This document shows, piece by piece, positions 1 through 15,799 of a stretch of 41,593 nucleotides of DNA. How positions within the stretch are numbered: the first letter of the stretch is position 1; every line of letters starts with the position of its first letter. The notes under the pieces were generated by a model, which had not been told where the DNA came from, ran no database searches, and saw only the letters and a list, made by a program, of their open reading frames with translations. The stretch is from a virus. The DNA lies in the IMG/VR virus record IMGVR_UViG_3300020202_000141, positions 1-41,593 of that record; one strand, written 5' to 3'. A program made the translations under genes and the position numbers.

Positions 1-403
1 CCTCCCCGTCCGGGGAGCGGCGCTTGCGGAACAGGGCCCACGGGTCGGCCTGCGCGTCTCGGCGGGCGAGAGCGGCGAGAGCGGCGTCAGGAAGCCCGTT
101 CACAGGGGGGGCCGGTTGTCCCACCCTGCCCGACCCCGTTTCGCCCGCCAGCGGCCCGGAAAACCGCGTCTCCGGGGAAATGAGTTGCATCCCGTCGCTG
201 CCCTCCACCGGCGGCGCGGGCGCGAGCTTCGCGGCGTAGGTGTTCGCCCACCACAGGACCGCGAACCGCTCGCCGTCGAAGCGGTAGGCCACCGGGTGCG
301 GGCCATGCGGGGAGCCGCAATGATGGATCAGCGTGACGACGCCGCCCGTGTGGCGCATGACCTCCGGGCAGGTGCCGCAGTCTTGGCAAGGCTCGTAGCT
401 CAT
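1..403 (-). CDS. Hypothetical early protein, cut by window edge
   Basis: The frame is open from an ATG at 403 to the left edge of the window, so the C-terminus is missing (134 residues visible). The start overlaps the stop of the gene at 400-579 as ATGA, the junction type used throughout this operon. The N-terminus has three closely spaced cysteines (CQDCGTC, residues 6-12) and an early His-His-Cys, so a small metal-binding fold is possible. The rest is polar and proline-rich near the edge. I do not recognise the family. Confidence 0.7.
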   Translation of the reverse strand, partial: MSYEPCQDCGTCPEVMRHTGGVVTLIHHCGSPHGPHPVAYRFDGERFAVLWWANTYAAKLAPAPPVEGSDGMQLISPETRFSGPLAGETGSGRVGQPAPPVNGLPDAALAALARRDAQADPWALFRKRRSPDGE

Positions 404-579
404 AGCCCACCCGTCCGACGGAGCCGTCCCACCACCCGCTCGGCGCTCTCGCGCATCTGATCCACCTGCCGAAGCAGGCAGTCGAGGGCGGCGGCGGTGT
501 CGGCGTGGATCTGACCCATGCCCGCCTCGGCGCGGGTGCGGTGCCATTCGGCGATGCGGCCGATCTCCTGGCGGGTCAT
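400..579 (-). CDS. Small hypothetical early protein (59 aa)
   Basis: A short, mostly helical, charged protein starting MTRQEIGRIAEWHR. An in-frame ATG exists further upstream at 624, but 579 is preferred because it overlaps the stop of the transporter gene (ATGA) and gives a normal small protein. The predicted chain is amphipathic (Asp/Glu/Arg with regularly spaced Leu and Val), suggesting a coiled-coil or helix-bundle partner protein. No family is recognised. Confidence 0.65.
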   Translation of the reverse strand: MTRQEIGRIAEWHRTRAEAGMGQIHADTAAALDCLLRQVDQMRESAERVVGRLRRTGGL

Positions 580-1109
580 TCCTGCCCCTCCATAGCGGCA
601 CGGCGGGGTCTGGCGGCCAGCCACAGGGCCACGGCGGCGGAGGCGTAGAGTTTGCCCAGCACCGTTCCGGCGGCGAACTCCAGCGCCCCGAAGGCGAGCC
701 AGACGAACAGCACGCTATCGAGCGCGGCCCCGACGATGCCGGACGCCAGCACGGCAGCCGAACGGCCCTGCCGGCGGAGGCGGTCATAGACCAGGGCGTC
801 GGCCAGTTCGGACACAGCAAAGGCGGCGGCGGAGGCCACGGCCAGCGCCGGCGGCGAGAACACAAGCGACAGGGCAGCGCCGACCAGCACGGCGGCAAGC
901 GCCCAGGCACGGCCCGCCTGCTCGTGGAGCGCGTCCCGCAGCACAAGCGCGGCACCGATCATCAGCACGCCCGAGGGGGCCATGAGGCCGAAGCCCATGG
1001 GGATGAGGCACGGGCCGCCGGGGATGCACGTCGTCCCGACATGGCCGATGAGCCAGTTGGCGGCGGGGATGGTCAGGGCAAAGGCAAGGAAGGTCAGGAG
1101 GCGCATCAC
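576..1109 (-). CDS. yhhQ: VUT/YhhQ-family transporter (7-deazaguanine precursor uptake)
   Basis: Integral membrane protein of 177 residues with about five or six hydrophobic segments. It carries the hallmarks of the VUT family (COG1738, YhhQ): an RDALHEQAG motif after the second helix, a central SELADALVY segment, and a late DSVLFVWLAFG helix. Known YhhQ proteins import queuosine precursors such as preQ0 and preQ1 across the inner membrane. It lies two genes downstream of a DpdA/TGT-like transglycosylase on the same strand, with ATGA overlaps on both sides, which supports a joint role in supplying a 7-deazaguanine base for DNA modification. The start may be either of two adjacent ATGs (1109 or 1106). 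The family call is confident; the substrate is inferred. Confidence 0.82.
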   Translation of the reverse strand: MMRLLTFLAFALTIPAANWLIGHVGTTCIPGGPCLIPMGFGLMAPSGVLMIGAALVLRDALHEQAGRAWALAAVLVGAALSLVFSPPALAVASAAAFAVSELADALVYDRLRRQGRSAAVLASGIVGAALDSVLFVWLAFGALEFAAGTVLGKLYASAAVALWLAARPRRAAMEGQE

Positions 1110-1333
1110 TCGGCCTCGATGGCCGCGCAGATCACGGCGGCGGCCTTGACGAGCATGGCCTTGGCGTCGTGGCCTTCCCGCTCGTTGCGGATCACGCCAG
1201 CCGAGGCGCGGCCGAGGTAGGCGAGCGCGATGGCGATGCGGTCGTTGCGGCTGTTTTGCCCCTCCACGGCCTGCACGTCTGGGCGGGCGGCCTGGTGAGC
1301 GAGTTCGGCTTGGATCAAGTCAAGAGCGGTCAT
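1106..1333 (-). CDS. Small hypothetical protein (75 aa), weakly MazG-like
   Basis: 75 residues, starting at the ATG that shares one base with the stop of the DpdA-like gene. The C-terminal half (NEREGHDAKAMLVKAAAVI) resembles the tail of short phage proteins related to MazG-type nucleotide pyrophosphohydrolases, where a similar stretch reads L-V-x-V-A-A-V followed by I-E-A. The acidic metal ligands expected of an active enzyme are not evident. It sits between the transglycosylase and the transporter, so a role with the modified-base pathway is possible but unsupported. Confidence 0.6.
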   Translation of the reverse strand: MTALDLIQAELAHQAARPDVQAVEGQNSRNDRIAIALAYLGRASAGVIRNEREGHDAKAMLVKAAAVICAAIEAE

Positions 1334-2016
1334 CACACGAGCTCCATCTGAAGGGGCCGCGTTTCCCAGCGACCGGGGGTTTGTTGGGCGTTCCAGCGCC
1401 GCGCCATGGCGGGGGCGGAGTTGTGCGGGCGGTTGTGGTTCTGCGCCACGTCGGTGCTGTCGAGCGAGGCGAAGGGGTAATGGCGCCCGGCGAGTTGCAT
1501 CCCGCGCAGCATGTGGAGCCATGGAAGGCGCTTGAAGGTGCGCGCCACCTCGTTCCATGCCTCGTCCATGCGACGGCACCACGCCTCGGACAGGACCGTG
1601 GCATAGGCCCCGGAGGAGCCGACGCAGACCTTGGGCCAGCCCGCGTCGATGAGGTTGAGGAGCCGATAGACACCCTCGTGCATATGCCAGACCGGGGCGC
1701 CGCGATGCCCATGGGGCCACTCGCGGATCAGCGCATCCTGCTCCTGCCCCTCGCCCTCGATCAGGTCGGGGATGACCGCCCAGGTGGTCGGGCAGTCCAG
1801 CCAGCGGTCGGTCCACTCGTAGTAGGCCGCCCAATCCGTCGCCTTGCCGCTTTTCCATTGGCTGTAGGCGCCATTGTCGATCATCACCGACTGGCCGATC
1901 TCGTGCATCCGCGCGACCTGCTGCGGGTAGGCGTGCGAGACGCAGAAGTGCTCTCCGGCCAGTTCATAGAGCACCGACAGGGGCGTGAACGGCCCGCCAT
2001 GGTAGTGGATCGTCAC
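1333..2016 (-). CDS. dpdA: DpdA/TGT-like transglycosylase (7-deazaguanine DNA modification)
   Basis: 227 residues. The GTG start at 2016 overlaps the previous stop (GTGA). The layout matches the tRNA-guanine transglycosylase/DpdA barrel: MIDNGAYSQW with D47 near the N-terminus, VIPDLIEG (D84), a glycine loop VCVGSSG (about 131-136), and a late PFASLDSTD segment (D186, D189) preceded by LHMLRGMQ, in the place where TGT enzymes carry the nucleophilic Asp. No CxCxxC zinc cluster is present, as in some short phage DpdA families. DpdA enzymes exchange guanine in DNA for preQ0-type bases, protecting it from restriction. The linked YhhQ-type transporter strengthens the call. Substrate and activity are inferred. 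Confidence 0.72.
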   Translation of the reverse strand: MTIHYHGGPFTPLSVLYELAGEHFCVSHAYPQQVARMHEIGQSVMIDNGAYSQWKSGKATDWAAYYEWTDRWLDCPTTWAVIPDLIEGEGQEQDALIREWPHGHRGAPVWHMHEGVYRLLNLIDAGWPKVCVGSSGAYATVLSEAWCRRMDEAWNEVARTFKRLPWLHMLRGMQLAGRHYPFASLDSTDVAQNHNRPHNSAPAMARRWNAQQTPGRWETRPLQMELV

Positions 2017-2225
2017 GCGCGCCTCCACCAGCGGGACGGCAGGGTGCCGTCGCCCACGCTGCCCCAGTGCTTGGCATCCGCCTCGCGGATGCGGCCCCGA
2101 AGTCCGATGATGGCGTTCTTCCCCACGCCGTAGCGGCGGCCGATCTCGGCGCAGGTCAGGCCCTCGTCGTGAAGGGCCAGAACCTCCAGGGTCTCCTCGT
2201 CGGTCCATGTGCGCTGGTGGGTCAT
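2013..2225 (-). CDS. GcrA-like HTH regulator
   Basis: 70 residues. The N-terminus RTWTDEETLEVLALHDEGL, followed by TCAEIGRRYG and a recognition helix GKNAIIGLRGRI, matches the pattern of the GcrA cell-cycle regulator N-terminal domain (W-T-D-E, then I-A-x-x-L-G, then R-N-A-V-I-G-K). GcrA binds DNA in a manner affected by adenine methylation and recruits sigma-70 RNA polymerase in Alphaproteobacteria. This copy is far shorter than cellular GcrA and lacks its C-terminal sigma-binding part. It is coupled to both neighbours by 4-base overlaps. It may regulate phage genes or interfere with host GcrA. Confidence 0.65.
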   Translation of the reverse strand: MTHQRTWTDEETLEVLALHDEGLTCAEIGRRYGVGKNAIIGLRGRIREADAKHWGSVGDGTLPSRWWRRA

Positions 2226-4167: not shown

Positions 4168-4307
4168 CTCCGCCTCCCGATCCCGCGCAGGCGGGCGCGC
4201 TGGTTGCGCAGGCCCTCCTCGAGGGCGGCGTTGGGGTTGCGCGGGTGCGGCGGGGGCGGCAGGGGCTCCTCCTCCGTCGGCACGGTCTGGGGCTGCGGCT
4301 GGGTCAA
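4164..4307 (-). CDS. Possible 47-aa coupled small protein, TTG start
   Basis: The space between the methyltransferase and the initiator-like gene is filled exactly by a frame starting at TTG (4307), which overlaps the methyltransferase stop, and ending in a TGA that overlaps the next ATG. The product is proline/glutamine-rich at its N-terminus and arginine-rich at its C-terminus. The perfect stop/start fit on both sides argues for translation, at least as a coupling peptide. A GTG nine codons in could be the true start. No family is recognised. Confidence 0.4.
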   Translation of the reverse strand: MTQPQPQTVPTEEEPLPPPPHPRNPNAALEEGLRNQRARLRGIGRRR

Positions 4308-5044
4308 AACAGCGCCTCCTGCACGGGCGCCGGAGGGGGCGCGGTGATGAGCAAGTCCGGCTGGGCGTAGGCTTCGGAGACGCGGCGGACGGCGATGTCG
4401 AAGTGGGCCGGATCTGCCTCCACACCGACGAAACGCCGCCCGGACATGACGCAGGCCACGCCGGTCGTCCCGCTGCCCATGAAAGGGTCGGCCACGGTGT
4501 CGCCCGGGTGCGTGAAGTCCTCCACGAAGCAGCGCACGAGGCCGAGCGGCTTCTGCGTGGGCACCAGCGCGCCACTGTGGACGGGGAAGGTCCAGACCCC
4601 TGCCCCGCCGCCCCGGTTCCAGACTTTGCGCGTGCGCCCGCTGTGGAGCACCGCCACCGTCTCAAAGCCCTGCCCTGGCCTGTCGGCACTGATCTGCGGC
4701 ATGGGGTTGGGCTTGACCCATGCCCCCAGTCGGACGAACTCCGGGCGGTCATAGAGGAGCGCCGCGTGGCGGAAGTCGCAGGTCATCACGACCCAGCCAT
4801 CGGAAGCCGCGAGGCAGGCGTCAGCGACGCGCAGGAAGGTCGGGCCAGACAGCGCGCCGAACGAGATCAACTTGCGGCCGTGCCCCGCGCCTTGATTGGT
4901 CTTTGCCATCTCGTGCGTGCGGTCGGCATACGGCGGGTCCGTCACCACCGCGTCCACCGGCCCCAGCAGCGGCAGCACCTCCAGCGCGTCGCCCTGGATG
5001 AGCCGATGAGGGCCAACGAAAACTTCCCTCTTAATCGGGGACAT
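4304..5044 (-). CDS. DNA methyltransferase, beta class (DPPY/FMGSGTTG)
   Basis: 246 residues. Catalytic motif IV is DPPY at 36-39 and the SAM-binding motif I is DPFMGSGTTG at 186-195, preceded by PTQKPLGLV. The order IV then I marks the beta group of N6-adenine or N4-cytosine DNA methyltransferases. The short region between the motifs suggests a small target-recognition part. No cognate endonuclease gene is nearby, so it is most likely an orphan phage methyltransferase that masks sites from host restriction. The start overlaps the HNH gene end by 14 bases, unlike the 4-base overlaps of its neighbours. Confidence 0.9.
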   Translation of the reverse strand: MSPIKREVFVGPHRLIQGDALEVLPLLGPVDAVVTDPPYADRTHEMAKTNQGAGHGRKLISFGALSGPTFLRVADACLAASDGWVVMTCDFRHAALLYDRPEFVRLGAWVKPNPMPQISADRPGQGFETVAVLHSGRTRKVWNRGGGAGVWTFPVHSGALVPTQKPLGLVRCFVEDFTHPGDTVADPFMGSGTTGVACVMSGRRFVGVEADPAHFDIAVRRVSEAYAQPDLLITAPPPAPVQEALF

Positions 5045-5522
5045 GAGCCCACGCCTTCCGCAGTTGGATCAAGCTGACGTTGGACTTGCTGATGCCAAAG
5101 CGCGCCGCCATTACAGCCAGTGGCTGCGCCCCCCTTAGCCGCCGGATTTCTCGGATGGCATCCGGGGTAAGCCGCGCTCTGGGATGGTCTGTGCCGCGCA
5201 AGCCGTTCCCGTGGGCTCGGCCTTTCCGGCCTTTGTCAGCCATGTTTTCAGCGTGCGTGCCTAGAAACAGATGGTCGGGATTGACGCAGCACGGCACGTC
5301 ACAACGGTGCAAGACATGCAGGCCATCTGGGAGCGGCCCGTTGGCGATCACCCAGGATACGCGATGCGCCTTCTGCTTCTGCCGCCTCACATGGAATTGG
5401 CCGTAACCGTCGCCGCAGACGTGGCCTAGCCAGATACGACAGCCGCTCGGCAGAACGTCCACCCATTTCGTGTCGAACAGGCTTACGACTTCCGGAGTTA
5501 TGCCTTGGGAAACGTGGTTCAT
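5031..5522 (-). CDS. HNH endonuclease (homing type)
   Basis: 163 residues. An N-terminal module ends in the HNH_3-type core: AHRVSWVIANGPLP, LHRCD, CCVNPDHLFLGTHAENMAD. This is followed by a basic KGRKGR stretch and a C-terminal helix-turn-helix (LAVMAARFGISKSNVSLI). This arrangement is typical of free-standing homing endonucleases of phages, which cut intron- or gene-less alleles and spread with flanking DNA. It sits between the PD-(D/E)XK nuclease and a methyltransferase. The 14-base overlap with the methyltransferase and its more relaxed codon use hint at later arrival in the operon. Confidence 0.85.
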   Translation of the reverse strand: MNHVSQGITPEVVSLFDTKWVDVLPSGCRIWLGHVCGDGYGQFHVRRQKQKAHRVSWVIANGPLPDGLHVLHRCDVPCCVNPDHLFLGTHAENMADKGRKGRAHGNGLRGTDHPRARLTPDAIREIRRLRGAQPLAVMAARFGISKSNVSLIQLRKAWAHVPD

Positions 5523-5938: not shown

Positions 5939-6126
5939 GCCCGCCTGCCCTCCCGTCTCGCCAGCGCCTCGCGCAGTTCCGCCACGTCCGCCTGCTCCTC
6001 CGCCGTCAGACGCAGCGCCGCCGCGCGCAGGGCGAGCGTCTCCTCCAGGCTCGCCACCGTCGGGCAGGCCGGGGAGTTGGGGACGTATCCGGCGAGGAGA
6101 CGGCCCAAGGGGGTGCGGGGGGTCAT
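5935..6126 (-). CDS. Small helical hypothetical protein (63 aa)
   Basis: 63 residues from the ATG at 6126, which overlaps the stop of the methyltransferase (ATGA); it ends with an ATGA overlap into the nuclease gene. The second half is a strong Ala/Leu/Glu helix (LTAEEQADVAELREAL). No known domain is recognised. Both junctions support it as a real coupled gene. Confidence 0.6.
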   Translation of the reverse strand: MTPRTPLGRLLAGYVPNSPACPTVASLEETLALRAAALRLTAEEQADVAELREALARREGRRA

Positions 6127-7337
6127 TCGGCGCTCCAAGCAAACAGACCCGCTTCGGCGGCGATGCGGGCACGGGCGATCCCGGCGTGGCCGGCGTCCAT
6201 CTCCATCAGGACAGCGCGCATCCCCTCCGCCTGTGCCGCAAGGCCCGTGGTGCCGCTGCCCGCGAAGGGGTCCAGCACCAGTCCGCCCGGAGGCGTGACG
6301 AGCCGCACGAGGTAGCGCATCAGGGCGAGGGGCTTGACCGTGGGGTGCGTGTTGCCCTCGCCGCGCTCGGAGCGGCTGGCCTTGGCGCAGTAGAAGAAGC
6401 GGGCTGCGGAGCCGGAGTCGCTACGGACGGCCAGGGGCGCGCGGTCCTGCGCGGCCCCGCCATGGAAGCCCATTCCGTGGCCCTTGGTCTTGCCATCCCG
6501 CGCATCGCTCTGCGGAAACAGCGCCACCACCTCCTCGCTGCCGTCGTGGATGAGGTTGGCAGGCCAACGGCCTTCGACGTTGACGGACTGCTGCGGGCGG
6601 TCAGCGCCATAGACGCCCGATGTCACGGTGTCGGTGCGGCCAGGGTTCTTGGCCTGAGAGATGGCGAGGTCGTCCGCGCTGGCATGGGCGATCCGGCACC
6701 CGTCGATATTCAGCGCCCCCGTTCCGTGCGCGAGCACGTTGGCGGCGACGGTGCCAGCGAGCGGCTTGCGAGCGACAGTGATCGGCTCCAGCGCGGGCTT
6801 GAGGGCCGTGCCCCAGCCTTTGAACGCCTGAGCCGCTTCTGTCGCGGGCAGATACTCCCGCGCGGCGCGGTCCACGGCATCACCGTCCGTCATCCAAGGA
6901 CGTTGCCATCCTTCCTCGCCGTCAGCGCCGCGCATCCGGCCGCGGTCAATCCATCCGGCATGGGCTACACTCTTGGGGCCGCCATAAGTCCCGCTCGCCC
7001 CCGCCGCCTTGTCGATAGCTTTGGACACGTCCAGCGACTTCGGGAAGCCCGAGCCATAGACCCACATCATCAGGTCGCGGACCTCAAAGCCTGCGTCCTC
7101 GATGCGAGTCGCCATGCGGTGCTGCGTCCGCGTGCCCGCGAAGGCGAGGAGGTGCCCGCCGGGCTTGAGCACGCGCAGGCATTCCGCCCACACGGCCACG
7201 GGCGGCACGTCACTGTCCCAGCCCTGCCCCATGAACTCCAACCCATAGGGCGGGTCGGTGACGATGCTGTCCACGCTCCCCTCCGGCATCTGCCGCAGCA
7301 GGTCCAGGCAGTCGCCCTCGCGCACGTCCACGGTCAT
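6123..7337 (-). CDS. DNA methyltransferase, beta class (DPPYGL/DPFAGSGTTG)
   Basis: 404 residues. Motif IV DPPYGLEF occurs near residue 28, after the typical opening GDCLDLLRQMPEGSVD. A long central region (about 100-330) forms the target-recognition part. The C-terminus has THPTVKPLALMRYLVRL and motif I LDPFAGSGTTGLAA. This is the beta arrangement of N6-adenine/N4-cytosine methyltransferases, of the size common in alphaproteobacterial phages. It is the second methyltransferase in the operon and has a quite different recognition region from the first, so the two should methylate different sites. No partner endonuclease is visible. Confidence 0.9.
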   Translation of the reverse strand: MTVDVREGDCLDLLRQMPEGSVDSIVTDPPYGLEFMGQGWDSDVPPVAVWAECLRVLKPGGHLLAFAGTRTQHRMATRIEDAGFEVRDLMMWVYGSGFPKSLDVSKAIDKAAGASGTYGGPKSVAHAGWIDRGRMRGADGEEGWQRPWMTDGDAVDRAAREYLPATEAAQAFKGWGTALKPALEPITVARKPLAGTVAANVLAHGTGALNIDGCRIAHASADDLAISQAKNPGRTDTVTSGVYGADRPQQSVNVEGRWPANLIHDGSEEVVALFPQSDARDGKTKGHGMGFHGGAAQDRAPLAVRSDSGSAARFFYCAKASRSERGEGNTHPTVKPLALMRYLVRLVTPPGGLVLDPFAGSGTTGLAAQAEGMRAVLMEMDAGHAGIARARIAAEAGLFAWSAE

Positions 7338-14500: not shown

Positions 14501-14706
14501 GAACCAAGCCGACCATCGCCTTCCTGCCGCGGCTGCTGCCAGCCCCACAGGCAGCGGCCTATCTCGGGGTGTCTGAGAGCAAGCTGCGCACGATGCCGAT
14601 CCCTCGAAAGCTGTTGGACGGGAAGCGGCTCTATGACCGACTGACGCTTGACGCCTACGCCGATGACCTCGCAACTGAGGGGACCGATCCGGCGAATGAG
14701 TGGTGA
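14497..14706 (+). CDS. Excisionase-like HTH protein
   Basis: 69 residues. A MerR/HTH_17-type fold: LLPAPQAAAYLGVSESKLRT, then a wing GKRLYDRLTLDAYADDL. Small proteins of this type directly upstream of an integrase usually act as excisionase (recombination directionality factor) or as a regulator of int. The integrase start lies inside its last codons, so the two are translationally coupled. Confidence 0.75.
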   Translation: MRTKPTIAFLPRLLPAPQAAAYLGVSESKLRTMPIPRKLLDGKRLYDRLTLDAYADDLATEGTDPANEW

Positions 14707-15799
14707 GATGCGCCTGCGCTACCCCGGCCTCGTGCGCGAGGTGCTTCCGTCCGGCACGCTCCGCTATCGCGTCCGCGTCGAAGGCGACGTGAACCGCAAG
14801 ATCCTTCTGCCCTTCGGCCCCGACCATCCCGACTTCCACCAAGCATACCGGGCGGGCCGCGCCGGGGTCCGAACGATGCTGGCGGGGGCGGAGGCGCCGT
14901 CGCAGGGCACGATGGAGTGGCTGGCGCATGGATACATTGCTCACCTCACCAAGCAGGTCAGGAACGGGAAAGCCTCCCCGTTCACACTCAAGCAGCGCGA
15001 GAACCAGCTTCGCCGCTTCCTGCTTGAGACAAGCGAGACAGGGAAAAGCGTCGGACGGATCTATGCCGGCCTGCCCATGGTCATCACGCAGAAGGAGCTC
15101 GTGGCGCTTCGTGACCGGCACGCCGACACGCCAGGCGAGATCCACAACCTCTTTAAGACCCTACGCGCCATGTATGAGTGGGCAATAGAGGCCGAACACG
15201 TCACCTCGAACCCCGCCAAGGGCGTGAAGGTCGAAAGGCCCGAAGGCGGCGGAGCGACCGCTTGGACGCTGGAGGATCTAGCAGCCTACCGGGCTCGCCA
15301 CCCACAGGGGACCATGGCGCACCTTGCCCTGTCGCTGTTCATGTTCACCGCCTGCCGGATCGGGGACGCCTACTGGCTGGGCCGGGCGCAGGAGTTCAAA
15401 CAGGCGGGCAGTCCATGGCTCCGCTGGCAGCCCACCAAGAGAGGCTCACGCGAGGTCACGCTACCGATCCTGCCGCCGCTGCTGGCTTCCATGAAGGCGC
15501 AGAAGATCGTCGGAGAAACCTACCTGCTGACGGAGCACGGCCAGCCATTCGCCAGCCGGGAAGCCCTCGCCAATCGGTTTCGGAAATGGTGCGAGCAGGC
15601 GGGCGTCAAGGGCCGCTCGCCGCACGGCATCCGAAAGGCGGCCGGGCACCTCATGGCGCTGGCCGGAGCCACGCAATACGAGATCATGGCGGTTCACGGT
15701 CATTCCAACGCGCGCACCTCAGAGGTCTATACCAAGGGCGTCGAGCGGATGCGCCTAGGGGAAATGGCGGCATCAAAGCTGGCCGGGATGGAGTGGTGA
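14696..15799 (+). CDS. int: Tyrosine site-specific integrase
   Basis: 367 residues from the ATG at 14696 (14708 is also possible). An N-terminal arm-binding region (about 1-60) and a SAM-like core-binding domain (about 65-165) are followed by the catalytic domain: R221 in TACRIGD, K248 in TKRG, H310 and R313 in HGIRK, H334 or H336 in VHGHSNAR, and the nucleophile Y345 in EVYTKG. It catalyses integration and, with the excisionase-like protein, excision. It is the last gene of the plus-strand coupled operon. The sequence just downstream is rich in repeats and probably holds attP. Confidence 0.93.
   Translation: MSGEMRLRYPGLVREVLPSGTLRYRVRVEGDVNRKILLPFGPDHPDFHQAYRAGRAGVRTMLAGAEAPSQGTMEWLAHGYIAHLTKQVRNGKASPFTLKQRENQLRRFLLETSETGKSVGRIYAGLPMVITQKELVALRDRHADTPGEIHNLFKTLRAMYEWAIEAEHVTSNPAKGVKVERPEGGGATAWTLEDLAAYRARHPQGTMAHLALSLFMFTACRIGDAYWLGRAQEFKQAGSPWLRWQPTKRGSREVTLPILPPLLASMKAQKIVGETYLLTEHGQPFASREALANRFRKWCEQAGVKGRSPHGIRKAAGHLMALAGATQYEIMAVHGHSNARTSEVYTKGVERMRLGEMAASKLAGMEW

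Follow-up and report, generated by a model that had tools for sequence, protein, structure and literature searches.

The window analyzed here is the whole 41,593-base stretch of the IMG/VR virus record IMGVR_UViG_3300020202_000141, and all positions refer to it. It encodes a compact enzyme of the DpdA/TGT_1 group and, one small gene away, a VUT/YhhQ-type transporter, a pairing that is a real recurrent module and not a one-off. We consider it likely that the two act as a two-part phage system, with the transporter importing a 7-deazaguanine base and the DpdA/TGT-like enzyme exchanging that base into DNA. This reading builds on the family to which the enzyme belongs, its fold class, a set of invariant candidate catalytic residues, the shared operon, the recurrence of the pairing, the mutual exclusion between VUT and biosynthesis genes, and the kinship of the transporter with chromosomal VUTs linked to queC.

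In the proposed mechanism, the VUT/YhhQ-like protein would bring in preQ0 or a closely related base that other cells produce or that tRNA releases. The enzyme would then cleave selected guanines of the phage DNA at the N-glycosidic bond and insert the imported base in their place, with D186 as the likely nucleophile and D47 as the likely general acid/base, roles assigned by analogy with what is generally known of TGT. Rare modified guanines could thereby shield phage DNA from restriction or mark it.

Support comes from how regularly the two genes travel together. When IMG/VR loci were retrieved by the enzyme alone, 35 of 80 carried a VUT, and in all 35 the transporter was on the same strand and no more than 293 bp from the enzyme (downstream in 20, upstream in 15), with none elsewhere in the flanks. 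No VUT appeared among the 84 loci that served as controls (975 kb); almost all of these were retrieved with the window's terminase, queries with the Erf protein and a methyltransferase having yielded two loci each. The arrangement extends to bacterial genomes, where a VUT lies beside the enzyme in 15 of 40 loci. In the reverse test, 16 of 18 IMG/VR loci retrieved by the transporter alone had a TGT-like neighbor (about 13 of 14 without near-identical copies): six of the window type, two PF23859 DpdA proteins, and eight members of phrog_15826, of which four were run against PHROGs and the others were assigned by a profile built from those four. Of the other two loci, one stops at a contig end and one had no TGT-like neighbor that we could see. 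Sinorhizobium phage phiLM21 likewise pairs a VUT with a PF23859 DpdA. Two phages that can be cultivated, Pseudanabaena phage Pam5 and Rhizobium phage RHph_N3_2, also have the enzyme-transporter pair. An earlier note on this DNA had proposed, from the window alone, a DpdA-like enzyme with its own precursor transporter; the proposal is supported, and the pairing proved far stronger than a single case could suggest.

Family phrog_15826, which is listed as having unknown function, stands beside a VUT in loci L103, L104, L107, L110, L111, L112, L114, and L115. Its profile and that of the window enzyme family align (probability 94%, E=1e-7), and in a fold search its AlphaFold model retrieved solved TGTs alongside other TIM barrels (probability 1.00, E about 4e-3). 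By profile, predicted fold, and neighborhood, it looks like a further TGT/DpdA-type base-exchange family. A separate family of about 85 aa, phrog_37496 (ending AHHHGVxIETVR), recurs next to the enzyme gene in 32 of 103 loci, in some of them along with a VUT (for example, L061:2068-2313, L101:5666-5995, and L114:2072-2371), and is absent from the window.

The assignment of the enzyme had been staked beforehand on a TGT/DpdA profile search, and that search found a match: the 227-aa protein belongs to phrog_887, 'queuine tRNA-ribosyltransferase' (E=5.9e-45, PHROGs). It is 40% identical over 199 aa to gp38 of Pantoea phage MED16 (E=2e-44) and 32% identical to the homologue in Salmonella phage 7-11 (E=3e-27). 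By tblastn, 102 phage records were matched, and a profile-guided scan of IMG/VR returned at least 559 relatives. Across 42 homologues H4, H6, D47, N48, G49, P83, D84, H111, G133, S134, H168, and D186 are invariant, so that a significant profile match and a shared invariant motif set both place the protein in the phrog_887/DpdA-TGT_1 group. Of the active-site segments proposed in the earlier note, D47, D84, GS133-134, and D186 are thus invariant; D189, also named there, is variable in the family and N in many members, and is best dropped from the list of active-site residues. An AlphaFold2 model built on the 42 aligned relatives had a predicted local distance difference test score (pLDDT) of 91.8 and a predicted template modeling score (pTM) of 0.88. 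Against viral models, Foldseek gave 28 matches at E<=0.001, the functionally named ones being queuine/queuosine tRNA-ribosyltransferases; R9TGF0 of Vibrio phage nt-1 follows at probability 0.98. Taken together, the window enzyme is probably a compact DpdA/TGT-like base exchanger that swaps guanine in DNA for a queuosine-type base.

As the earlier note had recognized, the neighboring protein is of the VUT/YhhQ type: it matches PF02592 (Vut_1) at E=7.5e-12, with 46.3 bits against a curated cut-off of 27.2, and combines this above-cut-off match with several hydrophobic segments. YhhQ of Escherichia coli is a tested preQ0 transporter (PMC5372724). The E. coli protein (YhhQ/QPTR/COG1738) and the window transporter share the Pfam family Vut_1. 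However, the window protein is shorter (176 aa), its Pfam match is confined to the second half, it is phage borne, and its partner is a putative DNA-type base exchanger rather than a tRNA TGT. The closest cellular relatives among those found are chromosomal VUTs adjoining queC in seven alphaproteobacterial genomes, including Bosea, Devosia, Ensifer, and Microvirga (loci L156-L162), which are 53 to 61% identical to the phage transporter. The queC neighborhood of these relatives suggests that the phage VUT takes up preQ0 or preQ1, and we infer that flow is inward rather than outward. A second, weak TGT-like gene (a frame of about 435 to 445 aa) also lies within a few kilobases of queC in alphaproteobacterial and Massilia chromosomes (L162, L163, and G050:C26), near a VUT as well in two of these three cases.

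Where the base comes from can be approached by asking which supply genes accompany the enzyme. The earlier note saw no folE, queD, queE, or queC, and this held across the 41.6-kb record, in which searches found no FolE, QueD, or QueC and a profile built in this analysis found no QueE. Among 103 enzyme-family loci, 20 encode a small QueD-like protein, half of them with QueE, and none combines VUT with QueD/QueE (hypergeometric 5e-7, relatedness ignored). The same was true of 113 non-redundant loci (after 90% clustering, genome loci included), with VUT in 53 and QueD/QueE in 20. On the tree, the VUT state changed at least 19 times and the QueD/QueE state at least 15 times; with so many changes, the exclusion pattern does not trace to one clade. 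Phages with the mini-QueD, often with QueE, were found without FolE or QueC (L005, L009, L038, L042, L043, L044, L047, L049, L053, and others), and no FolE or QueC was found in 53 longer records. Caulobacter phage DMCA is a further relative with a mini-QueD. Such phages may supply 7-carboxy-7-deazaguanine (CDG) or depend on host QueC. Among hosts, a real QueC match was missing in 5 of 15 with a VUT-bearing prophage versus 0 of 18 without VUT (Fisher p=0.013). All five are metagenome assembled, so incompleteness may account for the missing QueC, even though a TGT is present in each.

More tentatively, these patterns could be joined into one scheme, which we regard as possible rather than probable. 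Phages with a compact DpdA would take alternative supply modules: either a VUT importer, by which modification would no longer depend on the host pathway, or a mini-QueD, accompanied by QueE or not and lacking FolE and QueC, that might produce 7-carboxy-7-deazaguanine or supply host QueC. In the same scheme, phrog_15826 would be a further exchange family using the same importer, the 85-aa phrog_37496 an extra component, and VUT carriers may favor hosts unable to make preQ0.

The case for DNA as the substrate draws on relatives. MED16 and 7-11, which lack preQ0-synthesis genes, have 2'-deoxy-7-amido-7-deazaguanosine (dADG) in virion DNA by mass spectrometry (PMC8306585, PMC6884629), and the authors of the MED16 work give an HHpred match of its DpdA to Thermotoga maritima TGT 2ASH at 99.2% (PMC8306585). 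The window enzyme shares with this DpdA/TGT_1 group (MED16 gp38 and Salmonella SW9, SEN1, and 7-11) both its family and the invariant motifs DNGA, PD, H-LR, and DS, and the window phage, like theirs, has no preQ0-synthesis genes. It differs in a shorter C terminus and in sharing an operon with VUT, whereas MED16, SW9, and 7-11 have no VUT annotated nearby. The dpd islands and PF23859 phages (e.g., phiLM21 p025) resemble the proposed system in exchanging a preQ0-type base into DNA, and some also carry a VUT (phiLM21 and loci L106 and L108). However, theirs is a different DpdA family, for which the window has no match, and no DpdB/DpdC or restriction operon was recognized among the window genes examined.

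Several results weigh against this assignment. The record has no match to Pfam DpdA PF23859, for which phiLM21 p025 served as a positive comparison (2.4e-43), or to Pfam TGT PF01702, for which 14 of 14 control genomes were positive. Pfam gives nothing for the window enzyme itself and assigned no family in a scan of 17 enzyme-family members. A C-terminal zinc site, CxCxxC...H, is a defining feature of tRNA TGT, and the 227-aa translation has no such cysteine cluster. Foldseek against PDB returned generic TIM barrels (tryptophan-synthase type and others) with no TGT in the top 50, PDB searches with phmmer and a profile gave nothing meaningful, and hhalign of the family to six bacterial TGTs produced no alignment, using a shallow TGT set without secondary structure. 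The DNA target is extrapolated from relatives whose modification is sparse: dADG makes up about 0.13% of G in MED16 (PMC8306585) and 50 per million nucleotides in 7-11 (PMC6884629), and the same sources, as far as seen, report no knock-out for either phage. Finally, in some relatives the stretch examined contains no transporter and no synthesis genes, and an independent-pairs test of the exclusion, which corrects for relatedness, could draw on 0 to 4 informative pairs, with significance out of reach.

One alternative is that the enzyme is a small TGT acting on tRNA during infection, with the transporter feeding base to that reaction. It is in keeping with the TGT superfamily, with the PHROG label, and with the normal role of YhhQ in tRNA queuosine salvage (PMC5372724). 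We nevertheless judge it unlikely: dADG was measured in DNA from two phages of the family, a TGT match is already present in 32 of the 33 host genomes searched, the enzyme is without the zinc-binding tail of tRNA TGT, and it recurs in diverse phages, often beside DNA-metabolism genes. It is still less probable that the enzyme acts on DNA to leave a sparse sequence-specific mark serving regulation, packaging, or self-recognition rather than defense against restriction. A modification level of about 0.1% of G would fit such a mark, as would the observation that most enzymes whose sites include G still cleave dADG-bearing MED16 DNA (PMC8306585). However, a shortage of precursor in the laboratory may account for the low level, and phages with richer DpdA modification are protected (PMC6884629). 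That the transporter is an exporter or carries another vitamin-like substrate, lying near the enzyme only as a fellow mobile accessory gene, is the most doubtful alternative: the label 'putative vitamin uptake transporter', the inferred direction and substrate, and the gathering of unrelated genes in accessory regions would allow it, but its location no more than 300 bp from the enzyme, in either order, in dozens of loci versus 0 of 84 controls, its partnership with three different TGT-like families, and its queC-linked closest cellular relatives all speak against it.

Import of a base for exchange into DNA, the reading we prefer, bears on what is already on record. A 2019 report describes DpdA-only phages and phage YhhQ homologues and finds no correlation of the homologues with any phage group (PMC6884629), and later work counts YhhQ in about 9% of the dpd islands of bacteria (PMC11888242). 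Both ingredients were thus on record by 2019, which leaves the idea less novel than first presented. For the tight pairing, the alternative QueD/QueE supply, and phrog_15826 as an exchanger, we found no description in the literature searched, a search that did not fully check priority and that left a later 2023 Nucleic Acids Research article and a 2024 Microbiology and Molecular Biology Reviews review outside it. In contrast to the no-correlation statement, we see the transporter in tight, repeated association with three base-exchange families and never with synthesis genes. If the proposal is true, the module explains how DpdA-only phages obtain their base, the family phrog_15826 can be tested for base exchange, and these phages would seem to rely on a nutrient from the surroundings for modifying their DNA. 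Scarcity of precursor in the laboratory may be why the DNA of MED16 and 7-11 seems almost free of modification.

Both genes lie where the earlier note placed them, with the enzyme's 227 codons open and a single gene between it and the transporter (Table 1). The VUT frame spans 576-1109(-), and its start is likely the ATG at 1106, which overlaps the stop of the preceding gene. Overlaps of a few bases link the helix-turn-helix, dpdA-like, 75-aa, VUT, and 59-aa genes in series, and these therefore look like one coupled operon. The 75-aa protein has no counterpart among the recurrent families of related loci, and family matches to the 59-aa open reading frame were all insignificant (a 53-aa part was tested). 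An Rfam scan found no preQ1 riboswitch at the gathering threshold.

Table 1. Features of the window around the enzyme and transporter genes, and other genes mentioned in the text
Feature	Position	Strand	Remarks
59-aa open reading frame after transporter	400..579	-	ATGA overlap with VUT stop
VUT/YhhQ-type transporter	576..1106	-	176 aa; PF02592, phrog_4899 E=2.3e-37; several hydrophobic segments (hydropathy)
75-aa protein between enzyme and transporter genes	1106..1333	-	Open frame; weak phrog_2831 match only
DpdA/TGT-like base-exchange enzyme (putative)	1333..2016	-	227 aa, GTG start; phrog_887, fold, invariant residues
70-aa GcrA-like helix-turn-helix protein	2013..2225	-	GcrA E=6e-5, under curated cut-off; 4-bp overlap with dpdA-like start
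DNA methyltransferase	4304..5044	-	
HNH endonuclease	5031..5522	-	
DNA methyltransferase	6123..7337	-	
Tyrosine-integrase match	14648..15799	+	

A tyrosine-integrase match, together with lambda-type terminase and portal genes, supports a temperate, tailed phage, in agreement with the earlier description of it as temperate. Two DNA methyltransferases and an HNH endonuclease lie upstream in the same direction as the operon, and DNA modification in this phage may be of more than one kind.
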